From assembly GCA_902789795.1 (NCBI GenBank), contig CADAPM010000004.1, positions 62,001-126,000 on the forward strand: a DNA stretch of 64,000 nt, in the 5' to 3' direction. Origin of the DNA: an uncultured Eubacteriales bacterium (lineage in GTDB: Bacteria > Bacillota > Clostridia > Christensenellales > Aristaeellaceae). Positions 8,632 through 45,817 of this stretch are shown one piece after another; the stretch's first letter is position 1, and the number at the start of each line of letters is the position of its first letter. The position numbers and the translations under genes were made by a program. The notes beneath the pieces are model-generated. The model did not search any database. It was not told where the DNA came from and saw only the letters and a program-made list of their open reading frames with translations.

Positions 8632-10144
8632 GAGTTTCGTCCTCCTTCTTGATATATGCTTCAAGGTTTGTCAGATCGATATTTGGAGCGTCCTTCAGGA
8701 CGCCGTACAGTGCTTTCGCCATCAGCAGGACGCCGCCTTTTACGTCGCTCTCGATGTTCAGCGGCATCACGGGGTCGTGCACGGAGAGACGGATGAGCAG
8801 CCAGCCGTTCTCGCGCCCGCCGTTTAAGTCAAAGCTCACGCGGATGCCCTCGCGGTTGTCCGGCGCGATATGCCAGCGGACGTCCCCGGCGGCATAGGCG
8901 TTGATCTTATCAAACACCGTGTCCGCGGCGGCAAAGCGGTCTTCGCCCAGGGTGTTCAGGCGCAGTTCCACGCTTTCCACGGGCTCCTGGAGGCCATTAA
9001 GCAGGCTGGACAGTTCCTTGCCCTCCCGGCGCAGGCGCATGGCCTCCACGATGAGCACGGTCACCAGGTACATGCCGTCGTCCAGGAAATGGTTCTCCTT
9101 GAGGGCGGCATGGCCGCTGGTCTCGATGGCCAGGGGGCACTCAATGCCGCTCTCGTTCAGGCGAATGGCCTCGTCGATGACGTTGCGGTAGCCGCGCTTG
9201 AACCGGTAGTGCTTACCGCCCCGGGCCGCGATAAACTGCGCGAGGCCGGACGAGGTGACGGAGTCGGTCACGATGGTCGCGCCGGGGGATTGCTTGAGCA
9301 GGATGGCCGAGATCAGCGCGATCAGGCGGTTGCGGTTGATCTCCCGGCCGGTATGGTCCACGATGGCGGCACGGTCGCAGTCGGTGTCAAAGATGACGCC
9401 CAGGTTCGCGCCGCTCCGTTTGACCGCCTCGCTGATGGCGGCCATGGCCTCCTCGTCCTCCGGGTTCGGGATGTGGTTGGGGAAGCGCCCGTCCGGCTCC
9501 AGGAACTGGCTGCCCCCGGTCTTGGCGCCCAGGGCGTTCAGCATATCGGCATAGAAGCCGCCCGCGCCGTTGCCCGCGTCCACCGCGACGTGCAGACCGG
9601 TCAGGGGCTTTTCCGCGTCGGTGTTCAGACCCCTGCGGATGCGCTCTGCCAGGATGTGCTGGTAGGCGGGCAGGTAGTCGCGCTCGGTCAGACGTCCGGT
9701 GGGTTCGCCGCCGAGCTCCGCCTCCTTCGCGCAGGCGATGACCTGGTCCAGCTCCTTCCCGCTCAGGCCGCCGTGGGGCAGGATGAACTTGATGCCGTTG
9801 CGGTCCGAGGGCTGGTGGCTGGCGGTGATCATCAGGGATGCGTCCGCCTGATACCCTTCGGTGAGCAGGCACATGAACATGGCGGGCGTGGTGCACAGGC
9901 CGAAATCGGTGACGTCGATGCCCAGGCTGCGCAGCCCGTCGGAGACGCCCTTCACGATGGCGGGGCCGGTCAGGCGCGAGTCGCGGCCGATGTTGACGGT
10001 GCGCAGCGGCTGCCCCTCCCTCTCACGCCACCGGGCGAAGCCCACCGCGTAGCGGGCGGCGATGTCGGGCGTCAGCACGGCGTTATCGCCCAGGGCGACG
10101 CCCCGGATATCACTGCCGGATTTGAGCTTGAACAGGTCGATCAT
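8624..10144 (-). CDS. Phosphomannomutase/phosphoglucomutase family protein
   Basis: Alpha-D-phosphohexomutase that moves phosphate between C6 and C1 of a hexose phosphate. Visible motifs are the phosphoserine loop TASHQPSDRNG, the metal loop DTDCDRAAIVD, the sugar loop ETSGHAALKEN and the phosphate-binding end segment NREGIRVSF. Length is 506 aa from the ATG at 10142-10144, which has GGAGG four bases upstream. The next gene on the strand is transketolase (8-base overlap) and glgB lies upstream in the same direction, which fits a role supplying glucose-1-phosphate, though mannose use is equally possible. Confidence 0.88.
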   Translation of the reverse strand: MIDLFKLKSGSDIRGVALGDNAVLTPDIAARYAVGFARWREREGQPLRTVNIGRDSRLTGPAIVKGVSDGLRSLGIDVTDFGLCTTPAMFMCLLTEGYQADASLMITASHQPSDRNGIKFILPHGGLSGKELDQVIACAKEAELGGEPTGRLTERDYLPAYQHILAERIRRGLNTDAEKPLTGLHVAVDAGNGAGGFYADMLNALGAKTGGSQFLEPDGRFPNHIPNPEDEEAMAAISEAVKRSGANLGVIFDTDCDRAAIVDHTGREINRNRLIALISAILLKQSPGATIVTDSVTSSGLAQFIAARGGKHYRFKRGYRNVIDEAIRLNESGIECPLAIETSGHAALKENHFLDDGMYLVTVLIVEAMRLRREGKELSSLLNGLQEPVESVELRLNTLGEDRFAAADTVFDKINAYAAGDVRWHIAPDNREGIRVSFDLNGGRENGWLLIRLSVHDPVMPLNIESDVKGGVLLMAKALYGVLKDAPNIDLTNLEAYIKKEDETHV

Positions 10145-40482: not shown

Positions 40483-40487
40483 CTCCA

Positions 40488-40561
40488 TCTGGGTGGAGAG
40501 ATTCGAACTCTCGACCTCTTGAACCCCATTCAAGCACGCTACCAAGCTGCGCTACACCCAG
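40488..40561 (-). tRNA. tRNA-Pro (anticodon GGG)
   Basis: A complete cloverleaf: acceptor CTGGGTG/CACCCAG, D arm AGCTTGGTA, anticodon stem CTTGA/TCAAG with loop ATGGGGT (anticodon GGG), T arm GAGAG TTCGAAT CTCTC. No CCA is encoded. Its 5' half (from the anticodon loop up) lies in the 43-bp repeat shared with the far end of the integrated element, so this half was supplied by the element, and transcription now depends on a promoter inside it. Confidence 0.95.
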
Positions 40562-40564
40562 ATA
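40522..40564. repeat. Attachment-site repeat (left copy)
   Basis: 43 bp identical to 45935-45977, in direct orientation. It covers the tRNA-Pro gene from the anticodon loop to three bases beyond the 5' end. Identity stops at 40565 (A versus G). Confidence 0.92.
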
Positions 40565-40792: not shown

Positions 40793-40818
40793 GGAACCCC
40801 GCGCGTGCGTGGGGTTCC
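40793..40818 (-). other. GGAACCCC hairpin after the serine recombinase gene
   Basis: GGAACCCC (40793-40800) pairs with GGGGTTCC (40811-40818). No T run. A longer relative with the same ATCATGG flank lies at 41932-41959 after the helicase gene. The rest of 40565-40792 holds only the promoter and repeats listed. Confidence 0.5.
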
Positions 40819-40819
40819 G

Positions 40820-41368
40820 TTATTGCATTTCCTTGACTTTTCGGTAAAACGTTGCCTTGGTCATTCCTGCACGTTTCATTGCTTCAACGGCGGTTATATG
40901 CTCTTCTTTCCATTCCTTTACGATATCAGAGAAACTATCACAAGGTTGAATTGTTGGGCGTCCCATACGTCCTTCTTTCTTGGCTATCGCAATACCTTCT
41001 GCTTGCCTTGAAAGAATCTGTTCCCGTTCAAACTGCGCCAGACTGGCGAATACAGAGAGCATAAAGCGTCCTGCGGGCGTGCTTGTATCAATCTGCTCTT
41101 TCTGTGAGACAAACGCCACACCTTTCTTATTCAGAATATCAATGATATTAAGCAAATCTCGTGTATCACGGGCGAGACGTGAATAACTTTCCACTGTTAC
41201 CACGTCACCTTCACGGACATAATCCAACATGGCTTGAAGTTGCGGACGATTAGTATTCTTGCCGCTGATTTTCTCAATAAAAACCTTGTCATAATTAGAC
41301 AAATCCTGTTCCTGCCGCGCTGTGTTCTGCTCTTGGGTACTTACCCGAATGTACTTAATACTTGCCAT
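40820..41368 (-). CDS. Serine recombinase (resolvase/invertase family)
   Basis: Small serine site-specific recombinase, 182 aa. Catalytic domain with the nucleophile in YIRVSTQEQNTARQ, the SRLARDTRDLL helix, and AGRFMLSVFASLAQFEREQI leading to the dimer helix, then a C-terminal HTH (ITAVEAMKRAGMTKATFYRKV). ATG at 41366-41368 has AAGGAAG eight bases upstream. It may resolve element multimers or invert DNA; a cluster of TGATAC repeats lies upstream. Base composition is AT-rich, as in the rest of the element. Confidence 0.92.
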   Translation of the reverse strand: MASIKYIRVSTQEQNTARQEQDLSNYDKVFIEKISGKNTNRPQLQAMLDYVREGDVVTVESYSRLARDTRDLLNIIDILNKKGVAFVSQKEQIDTSTPAGRFMLSVFASLAQFEREQILSRQAEGIAIAKKEGRMGRPTIQPCDSFSDIVKEWKEEHITAVEAMKRAGMTKATFYRKVKEMQ

Positions 41369-41527: not shown

Positions 41528-41776
41528 TTATTTAAATCTTTTCTGCAATTCGCTGATAAGTCTTTTTTTGATTTCATCGGCTAAACTATTTAACGCAATA
41601 GGATTGCCGTTAAGAATCGTGTGGATGTCAAGCAGAATCTATTTGTCATGTTCCCGAATGGCATCATCAATCATTTTCTGACATTCCGCGCGCTGTTCTT
41701 GTCTGTCAATATCATGCTGTATTTCTGCTTGGATTTTTTTAAGGCGTTCTTTTTCAAGTTGAAAATAATCTGTCAT
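41528..41776 (-). CDS. Small element protein with an in-frame TAG
   Basis: AAGGAGG precedes an ATG at 41774-41776. The first 45 codons give MTDYFQLEKERLKKIQAEIQ and on to REHDK, then TAG at 41639-41641. The same frame stays open for 36 more codons (ILLDIHTILNGNPIALNSLA ... ISELQKRFK) to TAA at 41528-41530, and the second part looks equally protein-like (charged helices). Either the TAG is read as an amino acid or the gene is truncated at 45 aa. No family recognised; probably helical. Confidence 0.6.
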
Positions 41777-41931
41777 ATAAACCTCCTTTTTCCGCTACTT
41801 CCCAAATACGAATAAAGAACGGAAAGAATACATTGTATAATTATATTTATCATATAAGAGAATCAAATTCTCCCTGATAATATGTGATTTTGCTAAATCA
41901 TGATACTGTTTTTTTCTTTTATCATGGTACA

Positions 41932-41959
41932 GGAACCCCCGCCACACGGCGGGGGTTCC
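41932..41959 (-). other. GGAACCCCCGCC hairpin after the helicase gene
   Basis: Perfect 12-bp stem GGAACCCCCGCC/GGCGGGGGTTCC with loop ACAC, GC-rich against AT-rich surroundings. No T run. It is the second copy of the hairpin type at 40793. The rest of 41777-42026 shows nothing else certain. Confidence 0.55.
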
Positions 41960-42026
41960 GTCTTTGCCTTTACAATTACTTTTTTGTAGGGTTCTTATTA
42001 TAGAAACCCCACATTTTCAACGGCAA

Positions 42027-43199
42027 TCATAAGCGGTGAATGACTACATACGGTCTATCATCCGTTTTGCCCTCCGTTATAGTATAGCCGCTATCAGTAA
42101 TCAAGTGACACAATTTTTTCCATGGAATGAAGCGTCCCTTGTCGTTTTTGATATAAATTTCTTTGTTTAACTCTGCCTTTCCTTCTTTGAACAGTTTTCG
42201 CTCAATAAACTCATCTGGAATCATAATAATCCCATTGTCTTTATCCAAAAGGTATAGAGTCTGTAAATCTCCACGGTAACGACCACGCGCTTGTGTAATA
42301 TGCGTTTGATTGCTGTTATGAACAATAAAGTAATCCATTGTAGAACGTATATTGATGGCTGTCTCACAACTGGCGTTTATAATCAGCAAATTATACTCTG
42401 GCGGCACTTCTTCATAGGTCAGAAGATAATTGAGGACGCGGATTTGCTCTTTGCTCATCGGCTGTTTTTCGTATGAAAGACTCCAAAGACATATTGGATT
42501 ATGGCCGCAATCTCGCGCAATTTTCTCATACTCTATCATCTGCGTAACTCTGGCGACGTATAACGCGCCGCGCTGACTTGGAGATATATTACAGAGAAGT
42601 TGGTTTATGCTGGCATAACGCACGGTTTTCTCTTCGATATAGTGCCGTAATACAGTTGTATCAATAGGAACATAGTATTGCGGACAATATAGTTTTGACA
42701 AAAAGTCAGGTGTTGCCGTTATTCCAACAAATAACGTTTTCCCGCGTCTTACTGCATCACAGATGTTATCTCGCGCAATAGCGGTAAAGTTTCCTTCTTC
42801 CCCAAATGCTGAAAACTGAACAAGATTATGTGCTTCATCACATATTATCACTTCAAAATGGTCTGCAAAGTGTGGATATCTGCTGCACCAGACGCCGAAT
42901 TTGGCATATGTTGTAACTACAACTTTGTTTTTATCAAATTCCGTAAGTTGCTTTTCTTCCGCAATATCCTCATCAAAATACAAGCATGGCAAGGTTAAAT
43001 TCTTTTCTTTTGCTATACGCTGGCATCCGCTTTTCGTGTCAATAAGATACAATGCCCTGTATGGCTACGAAGCAAGCGGTGCTATTACGTTGATAGCGGC
43101 AGTAGATTTGCCACATCCACAAGGCGCAATAATAATGTTAAATGTTCCGTGAAAAAACGAATCCTATTCAAGGATTTCGGAAAGATACTTTTCGGACAT
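42027..43199 (-). CDS. DEAH-type helicase with two in-frame TAG codons
   Basis: Superfamily 2 helicase-like protein of 390 codons. ATG at 43197-43199 has AAGGAG upstream. The frame reads MSEKYLSEILE, TAG (43164-43166), DSFFHGTFNIIIAPCGCGKST (Walker A), AAINVIAPLAS, TAG (43065-43067), PYRALYLIDTKSG, then continues unbroken with VIICDEAHNL (DEAH box), FVGITATPD and ARGRYRG (arginine motif) to TGA. Both TAGs bracket Walker A, so the helicase works only if they are read through. The alternative is a pseudogene; the downstream 340 codons show no other damage. Confidence 0.75.
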
Positions 43200-43521: not shown

Positions 43522-43752
43522 ATGCGCATCATACTGGATACCGACAAGAAACAAATTATCGTCCCGTGGAACTATCAGCAGAAACTCAACGACATTAACA
43601 AAATTGCAAAAGAATTTGGCGGACAAGACTCAAAAGAAGCTACATTCACTGGCTATATTGATGACATTTGGAAGGACTGCATGAAGCATTCGGATACATG
43701 CGTTGTAACGGGACAAAAGCCCGCAAGAAATGGCGTGAAAAAGAATGGCTAA
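43522..43752 (+). CDS. Small element protein, unknown
   Basis: A 76-aa basic protein (MRIILDTDKKQIIVPWNYQQ ... QKPARNGVKKNG) with AGAGGAGGAG before the ATG and a consensus promoter. Short proteins of this kind, starting with a KQIIVP-like strand, are common in gut mobile elements, but I cannot assign a function. It overlaps the next gene by 8 bases. Confidence 0.7.
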   Translation: MRIILDTDKKQIIVPWNYQQKLNDINKIAKEFGGQDSKEATFTGYIDDIWKDCMKHSDTCVVTGQKPARNGVKKNG

Positions 43753-43933
43753 CAGAATAACACCCGAAGAGATTGTGCGTATGAACCAATTATACGCCAG
43801 ATTAGGAACTTACGCCGCGGTTGCGCGTGAGATGGGGCGCTCTGCATCGGCAGTAGCGAAGTATGTGAAGCTGGCGGGAACGCCAGATGTAGTGAAAGAT
43901 AAGTTTAAAGAAGCGATAAGACAGAAGAAGTGA
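43745..43933 (+). CDS. Small HTH protein
   Basis: A 62-aa protein whose core ARLGTYAAVAREMGRSASAVAKYVKLAG is a clear helix-turn-helix of the resolvase/sigma-like kind. It is translationally coupled to the gene before it (8-base overlap). Likely a DNA-binding regulator or an accessory (excisionase-like) factor; which one is not decidable from the sequence. Confidence 0.7.
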   Translation: MANRITPEEIVRMNQLYARLGTYAAVAREMGRSASAVAKYVKLAGTPDVVKDKFKEAIRQKK

Positions 43934-43973: not shown

Positions 43974-44789
43974 ATGAAGAGAATTTGTGTATTAATCTAT
44001 GTTATTTGTCTTTTTTCTACATTGTCAGCAGTTGCTTATGGTGATTCATTAACTTCTTCTGAACGTGAAGCTGCATCAAAAGTGGAGTATATTGCTGACA
44101 GAGAATTTTTTTATTACGAAAGAGATAATGTTTATGTAATTAGGTTTTCTTTAAAAGACAAGGATAAGAATAGGATAGCATCACCCTGCACAGTTGAAGC
44201 ACAATTAGTTAATGCCGAAGGAACTGAAGTATATTCAATCAAAAAGACGCTGTCAATGACTGGTGATTTCAGTACGTGGACATGGTCAAGTAAACTTTTT
44301 CAAGATCGTAATGGTATTTATGGAACAATCTATATTTCACCAAATGACATTTTAAAGAGTAAAAGTGCTAAAGGAACAATGCTTATCAAAGTTTATTTAG
44401 ATAAGTATATTAGCTTTGCAGAAAAAACAATTGATGTTGATGAACTCCCGACCATTGATACATCAGTGATTTTCCCTCAATTGCCTAAAACCATTTCGGA
44501 TAAAAGTTATGGTAATACTGCAATTATCAAAATCACAAACATGACATACAAATATAATAATACTACACTTAAAATCTATTTGACAGGTGAACTGGATTTT
44601 ACATGGTATGAAGTTTCTCGGATGTATCATGTTGGTTGGAGATTAATTGATGAAGAAGGTTATATCGTTAAAAGTGGACAATTACTGACAGATAGTCTGG
44701 GGTGGCACGATAAATTTAAAAATAAAGAAATCATCATATTTGATGTAGAACCAGGACTTTATAAATTGGAATTAAGAGATGTTGTATAG
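43974..44789 (+). CDS. Exported element cargo protein
   Basis: A 271-aa protein with a signal peptide (about 1-22, ending AVAYG) and a beta-rich mature part with two Ig-like stretches (FSLKDKDKNRIASPCTVEAQ and IIKITNMTYKYNNTTLKIYL). No catalytic motif or family recognised. GAGGATACGACA precedes the ATG. The gene ends TAG TAG and then, eight codons on, TAA (44811-44813), so its end would shift if TAG is sense in this element. Confidence 0.7.
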   Translation: MKRICVLIYVICLFSTLSAVAYGDSLTSSEREAASKVEYIADREFFYYERDNVYVIRFSLKDKDKNRIASPCTVEAQLVNAEGTEVYSIKKTLSMTGDFSTWTWSSKLFQDRNGIYGTIYISPNDILKSKSAKGTMLIKVYLDKYISFAEKTIDVDELPTIDTSVIFPQLPKTISDKSYGNTAIIKITNMTYKYNNTTLKIYLTGELDFTWYEVSRMYHVGWRLIDEEGYIVKSGQLLTDSLGWHDKFKNKEIIIFDVEPGLYKLELRDVV

Positions 44790-44890: not shown

Positions 44891-45817
44891 CTATCGGATT
44901 CTGATTTTTGAATTGCTGTGTTGTATCTGGGATAACGGAGAAAGGTTATCATAATCTCGCAAAATATCTGAATTGAAAATCTCACAATACTTTTGGGTCA
45001 TTTCAAGTGTGGAATGGCCCAAAAGCTTTTGCAATGTAAAGGCATTTCCGCCACAGTCAAGCAAATATTTTCGTGCGAACGTATGGCGAAAAAGATGTAT
45101 GGAAGTCTTATTAACGCCTCTGGCACGGTTATATCGCTGGATGGCTGAAGTAAGACAATTTTCACTCATCTGTCCGTTGAATTCATTTGGAAACAAATAA
45201 TCATTATCTGTTCCTTTTCGGTGGCGCAAGTATTCCTGAAGGATATGCTTCATTTCGGAACACAAAGGAGATACTTGCGCCTTCTTATTTTTTGTATGGC
45301 GAAAATAGCAAATGCCACTTTCTAAATCAATATCAGAATTCTTGATATTCCGCAAGGTAGCGGCGCGGCAACCGCTATTCAAAAGCATATTGATGATAAC
45401 CCAGTTACGATATTCAGAAAAAGCACATTGGCGGAGATTTGGTTTTTTCAGAAGCAGACGCAGTTCTTCATCTGTGTATGTTTCTTTAATGCTGTCCTCA
45501 TACTTGTATAATGGCACATGAAGTATTGATAATCCTTGTTCTCTTGCCCAAGAGAAAAATGTCTTAATCGTTACTAAATATGATGCAATTGTGTGAGACT
45601 TCAATCCTTTATCGCGCAGATGAGAGATTAGAACGTCAATATCTTTCTTCTTGATAGAATCAATTGGTACATTCCAGTTGATGAATTTTCCCGTTGCATG
45701 AAAATGATTCTTATAACTGTCCAGTGTCTTTTCTGCTAATCCCAGTGCTTTCTTGGCAAGAATGAAATCATCAAAGCAATCAGAAGCGGAACTGTGATTT
45801 TCAATCCTAATACGCAT
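44891..45817 (-). CDS. Tyrosine integrase
   Basis: Phage-type tyrosine recombinase, 308 aa. N-terminal SAM-like DNA-binding domain (LAEKTLDSYKNHFHATGKF) and catalytic domain with NSGCRAATLRNI (R), HLFRHTFARKYL (HxxR), LLGHSTLEMTQKYC (H and nucleophile Y). The stop TAG is followed directly by TAA. It lies at the right end of the element, 118 bases downstream of the orphan tRNA half, so the original host tRNA promoter (46014-46042) may now transcribe it. It should mediate integration into tRNA-Pro. Confidence 0.94.
   Translation of the reverse strand: MRIRIENHSSASDCFDDFILAKKALGLAEKTLDSYKNHFHATGKFINWNVPIDSIKKKDIDVLISHLRDKGLKSHTIASYLVTIKTFFSWAREQGLSILHVPLYKYEDSIKETYTDEELRLLLKKPNLRQCAFSEYRNWVIINMLLNSGCRAATLRNIKNSDIDLESGICYFRHTKNKKAQVSPLCSEMKHILQEYLRHRKGTDNDYLFPNEFNGQMSENCLTSAIQRYNRARGVNKTSIHLFRHTFARKYLLDCGGNAFTLQKLLGHSTLEMTQKYCEIFNSDILRDYDNLSPLSQIQHSNSKIRIR

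Follow-up and report, generated by a model that had tools for sequence, protein, structure and literature searches.

Two genes of a small integrated element in an uncultured Eubacteriales bacterium, one for a helicase-type protein and one for a small protein, are interrupted in frame by TAG alone. The same holds for every interrupted copy among the strong matches to these genes in 308 genomes of the host family. TAG is likely read as sense in this element family, a reading in which we have good confidence. We also lean, more modestly, towards a fuller account in which these TAGs are sense codons, probably for glutamine, decoded with the help of an outside amber suppressor. Recoding is favored over decay because TAG-only interruption recurs between elements, because Gln is enriched at the TAG columns of the small gene and because the encoded proteins mostly evolve at ordinary rates. 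An earlier note on this DNA had asked whether the TAGs mark amber recoding or decay; the comparisons favor the former, and our account of how the codons are read is a proposal.

The element and its two interrupted genes

The window, that is, the whole stretch of 64,000 nucleotides that was analyzed, contains an element whose limits are set by a perfect 43-nt direct repeat, with a span of 5.4 kb between the two copies. The left copy overlaps a tRNA-Pro(ggg) gene, and on the minus strand the helicase, the small gene and a serine recombinase stand in a row. The features are as follows:

40487..40562, minus strand: tRNA-Pro(ggg), the integration site (ARAGORN)
40522..40564: left copy of the 43-nt direct repeat, presumed att site (repeat search)
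40820..41368, minus strand: serine recombinase (resolvase domain, family match), free of internal stops
41528..41776, minus strand: small gene, 82 codons including the TAG, with an AAGGAGG site upstream (ORF reading and homologues)
41639..41641, minus strand: in-frame TAG of the small gene, in a Gln-rich column (alignments)
42027..43199, minus strand: helicase-type gene with two TAGs (ResIII/DEAD family in the intact homologue P0003)
43065..43067, minus strand: second in-frame TAG of the helicase, after Walker A (alignment)
43164..43166, minus strand: first in-frame TAG of the helicase, codon 12 (alignment)
43522..43752, plus strand: short ORF, 76 aa, no family match
43745..43933, plus strand: short ORF, 62 aa, with a helix-turn-helix look by eye only
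43974..44789, plus strand: 271-aa protein with a signal-like start by eye, ending TAG-TAG
44891..45817, minus strand: tyrosine integrase, free of internal stops, ending TAG-TAA
45935..45977: right copy of the 43-nt direct repeat (repeat search)

The endings first described for the integrase (TAG-TAA) and for the 271-aa cargo protein (TAG-TAG, then TAA) were both borne out, the TAA of the latter lying seven codons beyond the second TAG. The 271-aa protein has no match in Pfam, PHROGs, PADLOC or NCBIfam. Two similar GC-rich stretches (40811-40830 and 41952-41971, 85% alike) lie close to the ends of element genes, each, by eye, at the foot of a hairpin-like repeat. Outside the element, TAG is a rare terminator, yet in use: among 46 coding-like ORFs, a crude choice, TGA ends 25, TAA 16 and TAG five, and some of these five may be shadow frames. 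The rarity claimed earlier stands, at five of 46 rather than at two of about fifty.

The helicase frame reads as originally reported (43199-42027, minus strand), with an ATG start, TAG at 43164-43166 and 43065-43067 and a TGA end. Its Walker A motif (APCGCGKST) lies between the two TAGs and DEAH downstream of both, and AAGGAG-type ribosome sites stand upstream of the helicase start and of the small-gene start. With the piece after the second TAG as query, 201 proteins were found and 120 listed; many of those listed are ~390 aa long. Homology spans both TAGs (43 of the 120 listed homologues aligned, with the three pieces kept apart), so the segment ahead of the first TAG and the one between the two are parts of one protein with the rest. 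Residues vary in the column of the first TAG (T, V, A, P, with occasional S and Q), and that of the second holds mainly S, with H, Q, K and T in the nearest relatives. The window's piece represents a cluster of three sequences from three contigs, and no full-length, near-identical copy is among the matches listed.

In family searches, the intact homologue P0003 gives a ResIII/DEAD-type family match and a weak match to CyRepA1-type plasmid replication helicases (NCBIfam NF042913; residues 18-323, E 0.003); at 16.5 bits against a cut-off of 200, it falls outside the CyRepA1 family. The helicase also matches phage helicases weakly, and its piece matches one phage record (a Clostridioides phage, 30% identity) and one plasmid record. 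Judged from its sequence, the protein likely has a replication role.

The small gene likewise has the structure first ascribed to it (41776-41528, minus strand): an ATG with AAGGAGG, a single internal TAG at 41639-41641, 36 more codons and a TAA. The protein collection holds a 45-aa form and an 82-aa form, each from two contigs; the 82-aa form is identical apart from a Gln at the TAG site, and is either an allele or a code-15 gene call. For an intact homologue, structure modeling predicts two helices with a mean pLDDT of 74 and a pTM of 0.37, a model too weak for a fold search, and a sequence search of solved structures gave no similar entry. The small protein weakly matches a PHROG family without a function. 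The homologue P0127 has no match in 50,697 phage and 72,556 plasmid records, and a single 15-residue match of the small gene to viral contigs was set aside.

TAG-only interruption in related elements

A search of 308 host-family genomes with an alignment of the window's helicase piece and intact homologues (A1) gives 24 matches, of which 17 count as strong (E below 1e-70). TAG-free copies form the majority (13/17); the other four carry internal stops, and all six stops are TAG, two in the window, two in G229 and one each in G029:C193 and G123. A wider search of drawn samples (396 genomes from the order, 391 from the class) yields clear relatives beyond the host family in G550, G477 (partial), G779 and G956, all stop-free. 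For the small gene, the 308 genomes give 24 matches, and 10 of these are strong (E below 1e-9). TAG occurs in six of the 10, and their in-frame stops are TAG in 10 of 10 cases: one each in the window, G029:C193, G127 and G185, two in G153, and, in G123, one inside the match and four when the gene is read through to its TAA. This G123 copy thus holds four TAGs in ~100 codons with its end in place. The strong matches of G155, G029:C139, G138 and G139 are free of TAG, as are 13 of the 14 weak ones, the exception being a fragment in G039, and neither TAA nor TGA occurs inside any of the 24 small-gene matches. Combined, the strong matches to the two genes have 16 in-frame stops, all TAG, and no frame break was seen in the TAG-bearing copies. 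The binning of G127 and G185 is less certain, because both contigs are short (8.5 and 4.5 kb). In the small gene, TAGs occur anywhere between its early part and a point close to its end; in the helicase they range between codon 12 and the final third, three of them falling within the first 20 codons. Recurrence in related elements, which the earlier note proposed as a check, was found; the same TAG-only pattern there, together with homology across the helicase TAGs, points to more than chance.

Comparison of whole element loci adds further TAG-bearing genes, namely a helix-turn-helix gene in G029:C139 (two TAGs) and a 137-aa-type gene in G123 (one). As antisense shadow frames swamp the raw locus-to-locus stop count, the best frame was kept and flank identity was then required. 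The best-frame count of 40 stops (TAG 25, TGA 13, TAA 2) becomes TAG 19, TGA 3 and TAA 1 with the looser identity filter and TAG 16, TGA 2 and TAA 1 with the stricter one, with four and three of the TAGs, respectively, coming from phage. The stops were sorted by eye. Non-TAG stops put aside by hand were those of G138 (antisense to a chromosomal gene), G153 (upstream of the integrase start), G115 (upstream of a helicase fragment) and G029:C139 at 74537 (upstream of a gene); a TAG at G123 31778, which precedes a start, was likewise put aside. The other non-TAG stops of the 40 were judged extragenic, in gaps or in a shadow frame, with one true exception found, a TGA in the G155 integrase (L059, near 5093, minus strand) with homology on both sides.

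The helix-turn-helix gene lies directly upstream of the small gene in larger elements, and three copies were compared:

L168, near 8903-9059, plus strand: helix-turn-helix gene
L110, 17650-18018, plus strand: helix-turn-helix gene
L113, 358-651, minus strand: helix-turn-helix gene

The two in-frame TAGs are confined to the G029:C139 copy. The gene weakly matches many such domains, including, for the G153 copy, that of a terminase small subunit, a possible link that we treat as a lead rather than a finding. The larger elements L110 (G029:C193) and L113 (G153) also contain a series of short related ORFs starting MKKNA, and the larger element of G029 carries a gene for ArdC-type antirestriction and one for a putative surface protein of great length.

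The small-gene alignments suggest which residue the TAGs would encode. In a 12-gene alignment, Gln accounts for 0.402 of the residues at the TAG columns versus 0.081 at random positions of the same rows (nine TAGs with enough comparators; p 5e-5, the floor of 20,000 draws). A larger alignment, extended by 117 homologues found with TAG-free query rows (215 found, 120 listed), gives 0.384 versus 0.088 (p 1.5e-4). The log-odds profile of the TAGs is led by Q (10.6), ahead of K (7.6) and E (3.7), and on that scale the genuine Gln codons of these rows reach 9.5. The window's TAG falls in the same column as that of the very diverged G185 copy in both alignments; those of the window and G029:C193 occupy neighboring columns. 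In the 12-row alignment the second G153 TAG is aligned with the fourth G123 TAG, whereas the larger one separates them. The columns of the first G153 TAG, the G127 TAG and the first G123 TAG are mainly T, E and K rather than Gln-rich. For the helicase, the log-odds over six positions are nearly level (K 2.8, Q 2.6, T 2.5). The expectation that Gln would align at the TAG sites is thus upheld for the small gene, where TAG is likely read as Gln, and the helicase columns do not decide the residue.

Chance was modeled with a one-step codon mutation null built from the codons of these genes, pseudogenes not being counted. With transition weights of 1 to 4, the expected share of TAG among new stops is 0.30 to 0.35 for the small gene and 0.38 to 0.40 for the helicase, and with transitions almost alone it reaches 0.43 and 0.45. 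At shares of 0.36-0.45, 16 TAGs out of 16 have a p of 8e-8 to 3e-6, events being treated as independent. Without the window, which was the source of the idea, 13 out of 13 give 2e-6 to 3e-5, and with one vote per gene, 12 out of 12 give 3e-5 at a share of 0.42.

These values bear on the possibility that the TAGs are nonsense mutations in genes that are unneeded after integration, their excess being due to mutation bias and chance. Pseudogene mimicry is the main caution for a sense reading here: from a screen of over 250,000 genomes, in-frame stops in pseudogenes are described as able to mimic reassignment (PMC8629427). Decay would equally place TAG at Gln columns, through mutated Gln codons, but CAA is as frequent as CAG in these genes (145 and 146 in the helicases, 35 and 30 in the small genes) and TAA is absent, which counts against it. 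The family does contain other breaks: the G155 integrase has its TGA, the G175 helicase is cut off after ~95 codons, and for the G115 helicase the search recovered the C-terminal part only; the TAG-bearing copies have neither mixed stops nor frame breaks, and the intact end of the four-TAG small gene of G123 also argues against decay. Evolutionary rates point mostly the same way. The G127 small gene (one TAG) differs from that of G155 (none) by 18 synonymous and three amino-acid codon changes besides the TAG column (dN/dS 0.03 overall, 0.02 after the TAG), and between the helicases of G229 and G244, whose synonymous sites are saturated, dN is 0.27 upstream of the first TAG and 0.21 downstream of the last. 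In relative-rate tests, three of the four helicases (window, G229 and G029:C193) give even counts, and none of the small genes of the window, G127, G185, G153 and G123 is significantly faster than its relatives. In favor of decay, the G123 helicase, alone among these, is faster than its sisters (62 v 33, 82 v 32). Also against a sense reading, the G185 and G155 small genes differ by three amino-acid changes before the TAG and 31 after. The second half of the gene is variable in TAG-free copies too: its identity is at or below 0.45 in 56/273 intact pairs with like first halves, and the 0.31 of G185 and G155 is rather low for such pairs. Constraint gives no date for the TAGs, some of which may be young in their copies. 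Taken with the suppressor tRNA search of four host assemblies, which found none and so speaks for decay, this evidence makes decay an unlikely account of the TAGs.

Possible sources of decoding

The host offers no evident decoder. Loss of RF1, raised earlier as a point to check, does not hold, as RF1 scores above its cut-off in this host (G000). Host tRNAs were located with Rfam RF00005 and their anticodons then read; a CUA anticodon was found in none of 42/42 tRNAs read in G000, 32/32 in G123, 37/37 in G153 and 36/38 in G127, in assemblies that are 88%, 93%, 84% and 95% complete, respectively. In G000, Asn and Ile tRNAs, for example, are absent among those read, the assembly being incomplete. 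The genome-wide search for a CUA tRNA suggested by the earlier note thus gave none in four incomplete assemblies, leaving room for an outside source. Its remark that the element shows no suppressor tRNA was correct, ARAGORN and Rfam finding no tRNA other than that of the integration site. With Rfam at a loose threshold, neither the window's element nor three element stretches gave anything further, such as a degenerate tRNA, and the related stretches scanned hold single tRNAs only, near the integrase end where an integrase was recognized. A pattern search for a host suppressor found nothing in three genomes; its T-arm part occurs in just 28/77 known tRNA lines, so the tRNAs from RF00005 were read instead. 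Pyrrolysine coding was considered and rejected, PylS being below its cut-off in 5/5 genomes (incomplete assemblies). With RF1 present and no CUA tRNA in the element or among the host tRNAs read, a suppressor should come from outside.

Phage sequences provide one link to such a source. Three viral-contig records encode distant helicase relatives (23-27% identity), and two further viral-contig scans for the helicase found nothing. One of the three, L071 (IMGVR_UViG_3300021399_000151, 70150 bases; L133, L134 and L135 are further loci of this record), encodes a relative of 23% identity with four in-frame TAGs, and its long frames elsewhere contain up to 14, which gives it the appearance of a recoded phage; the helicases of the other two records have none. 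Among its 11 tRNA matches, nine were read by ARAGORN, none of them CUA; of the other two, one reads as Gln(UUG) by our own folding and one is unreadable. When the ORFs of ten element loci were compared with the three phage records, helicase aside, a single weak match appeared (E 1e-5, from a G123 stretch). The sole phage link is thus one recoded phage with a distant relative of the helicase.

These observations are compatible with a conditional mode of expression. In the integrated state, RF1 would end the helicase and the small protein early at their TAGs, while the integrase and the serine recombinase, free of internal stops, could still be made. Full-length helicase and small protein would appear only with an amber suppressor from outside, whose likeliest source would be an infecting or induced phage using TAG as Gln; a helper phage enters this proposal because a suppressor is needed. 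The TAGs would tie the replication-type genes of the element to the code-switched phase of its helper. That a recoded helper phage supplies the suppressor, with the TAGs acting as a lock, is the mechanism we favor, at somewhat less than an even chance. At much the same odds stands the generalization that a family of satellites locks replication-type, and perhaps packaging, genes by amber codons, which the host would be unable to read, with the helper's code switch as the induction signal.

Sense decoding might instead draw on a source inside the cell, without a helper, through low-level reading of TAG by normal tRNAs or through an unusual or unassembled host suppressor. Normal tRNAs reading TAG would require no additional part, and the host assemblies are incomplete enough to hide a tRNA, as the Asn and Ile tRNAs of G000 illustrate. 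This is nevertheless quite improbable, given the RF1 of G000, the PylS results and the four TAGs of the G123 small gene, at which low read-through would leave almost no product. Programmed early stops, in which short products work or translation restarts past the TAG, could suit the three helicase TAGs within the first 20 codons, past which translation could conceivably resume, and the neighboring columns of the small-gene TAGs in the window and G029:C193; but TAG positions vary widely in both genes, and a restart after the second helicase TAG of the window would lose Walker A, which makes this account very hard to credit.

Comparison with known systems

Stop-codon recoding has been documented in phages that encode a suppressor tRNA themselves. 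Amber-coded genes in satellites or integrated elements do not appear among the literature matches listed, which were judged by title and the start of the abstract and include few subscription journals. Recoding of this kind, if true, shapes mobile elements that have no decoder of their own, in a host where TAG serves as a stop, and a code switch as a signal between phage and parasite becomes directly testable. Standard gene calling would then be breaking TAG-coded genes and filing them as pseudogenes.

In its gene content, the element resembles phage-inducible chromosomal islands (PICIs) and other phage satellites, with an integrase, att repeats at a tRNA and a replication-type gene, and with structural genes unrecognized (PMC6092414). 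PICIs are described there as about 12-15 kb long, with an integrase, a replication module and a master regulator. The element spans 5.4 kb, carries a serine recombinase and has no identified master regulator, and its size and the regulator keep it out of the PICI class. TAG-coded genes are no feature of PICIs as described in that source (PMC6092414), whereas here the helicase and the small gene contain in-frame TAGs. The recoded phage L071 shares with the element a helicase relative with TAGs and differs from it in being at least 70 kb long.

The closest parallels are with gut phages of genetic code 15. Mass spectrometry has identified TAG read as Gln late in infection for two crAss-like phages, and suppressor tRNAs are marked in both crAss-like genomes shown (PMC9523058); in recoded gut phages, suppressor tRNAs are reported next to theta ribozymes (PMC10879173). 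The code-15 systems described there (PMC9523058) are phages, whereas the element considered here is a 5.4-kb integrated one without structural genes, whose only tRNA is that of its integration site and in which no CUA suppressor tRNA was found. What it has in common with these phages (PMC9523058) is in-frame interruption by TAG only, in a helicase and a small gene that end in TGA and TAA, together with TAG columns enriched in Gln in one gene and a host that uses the normal code.
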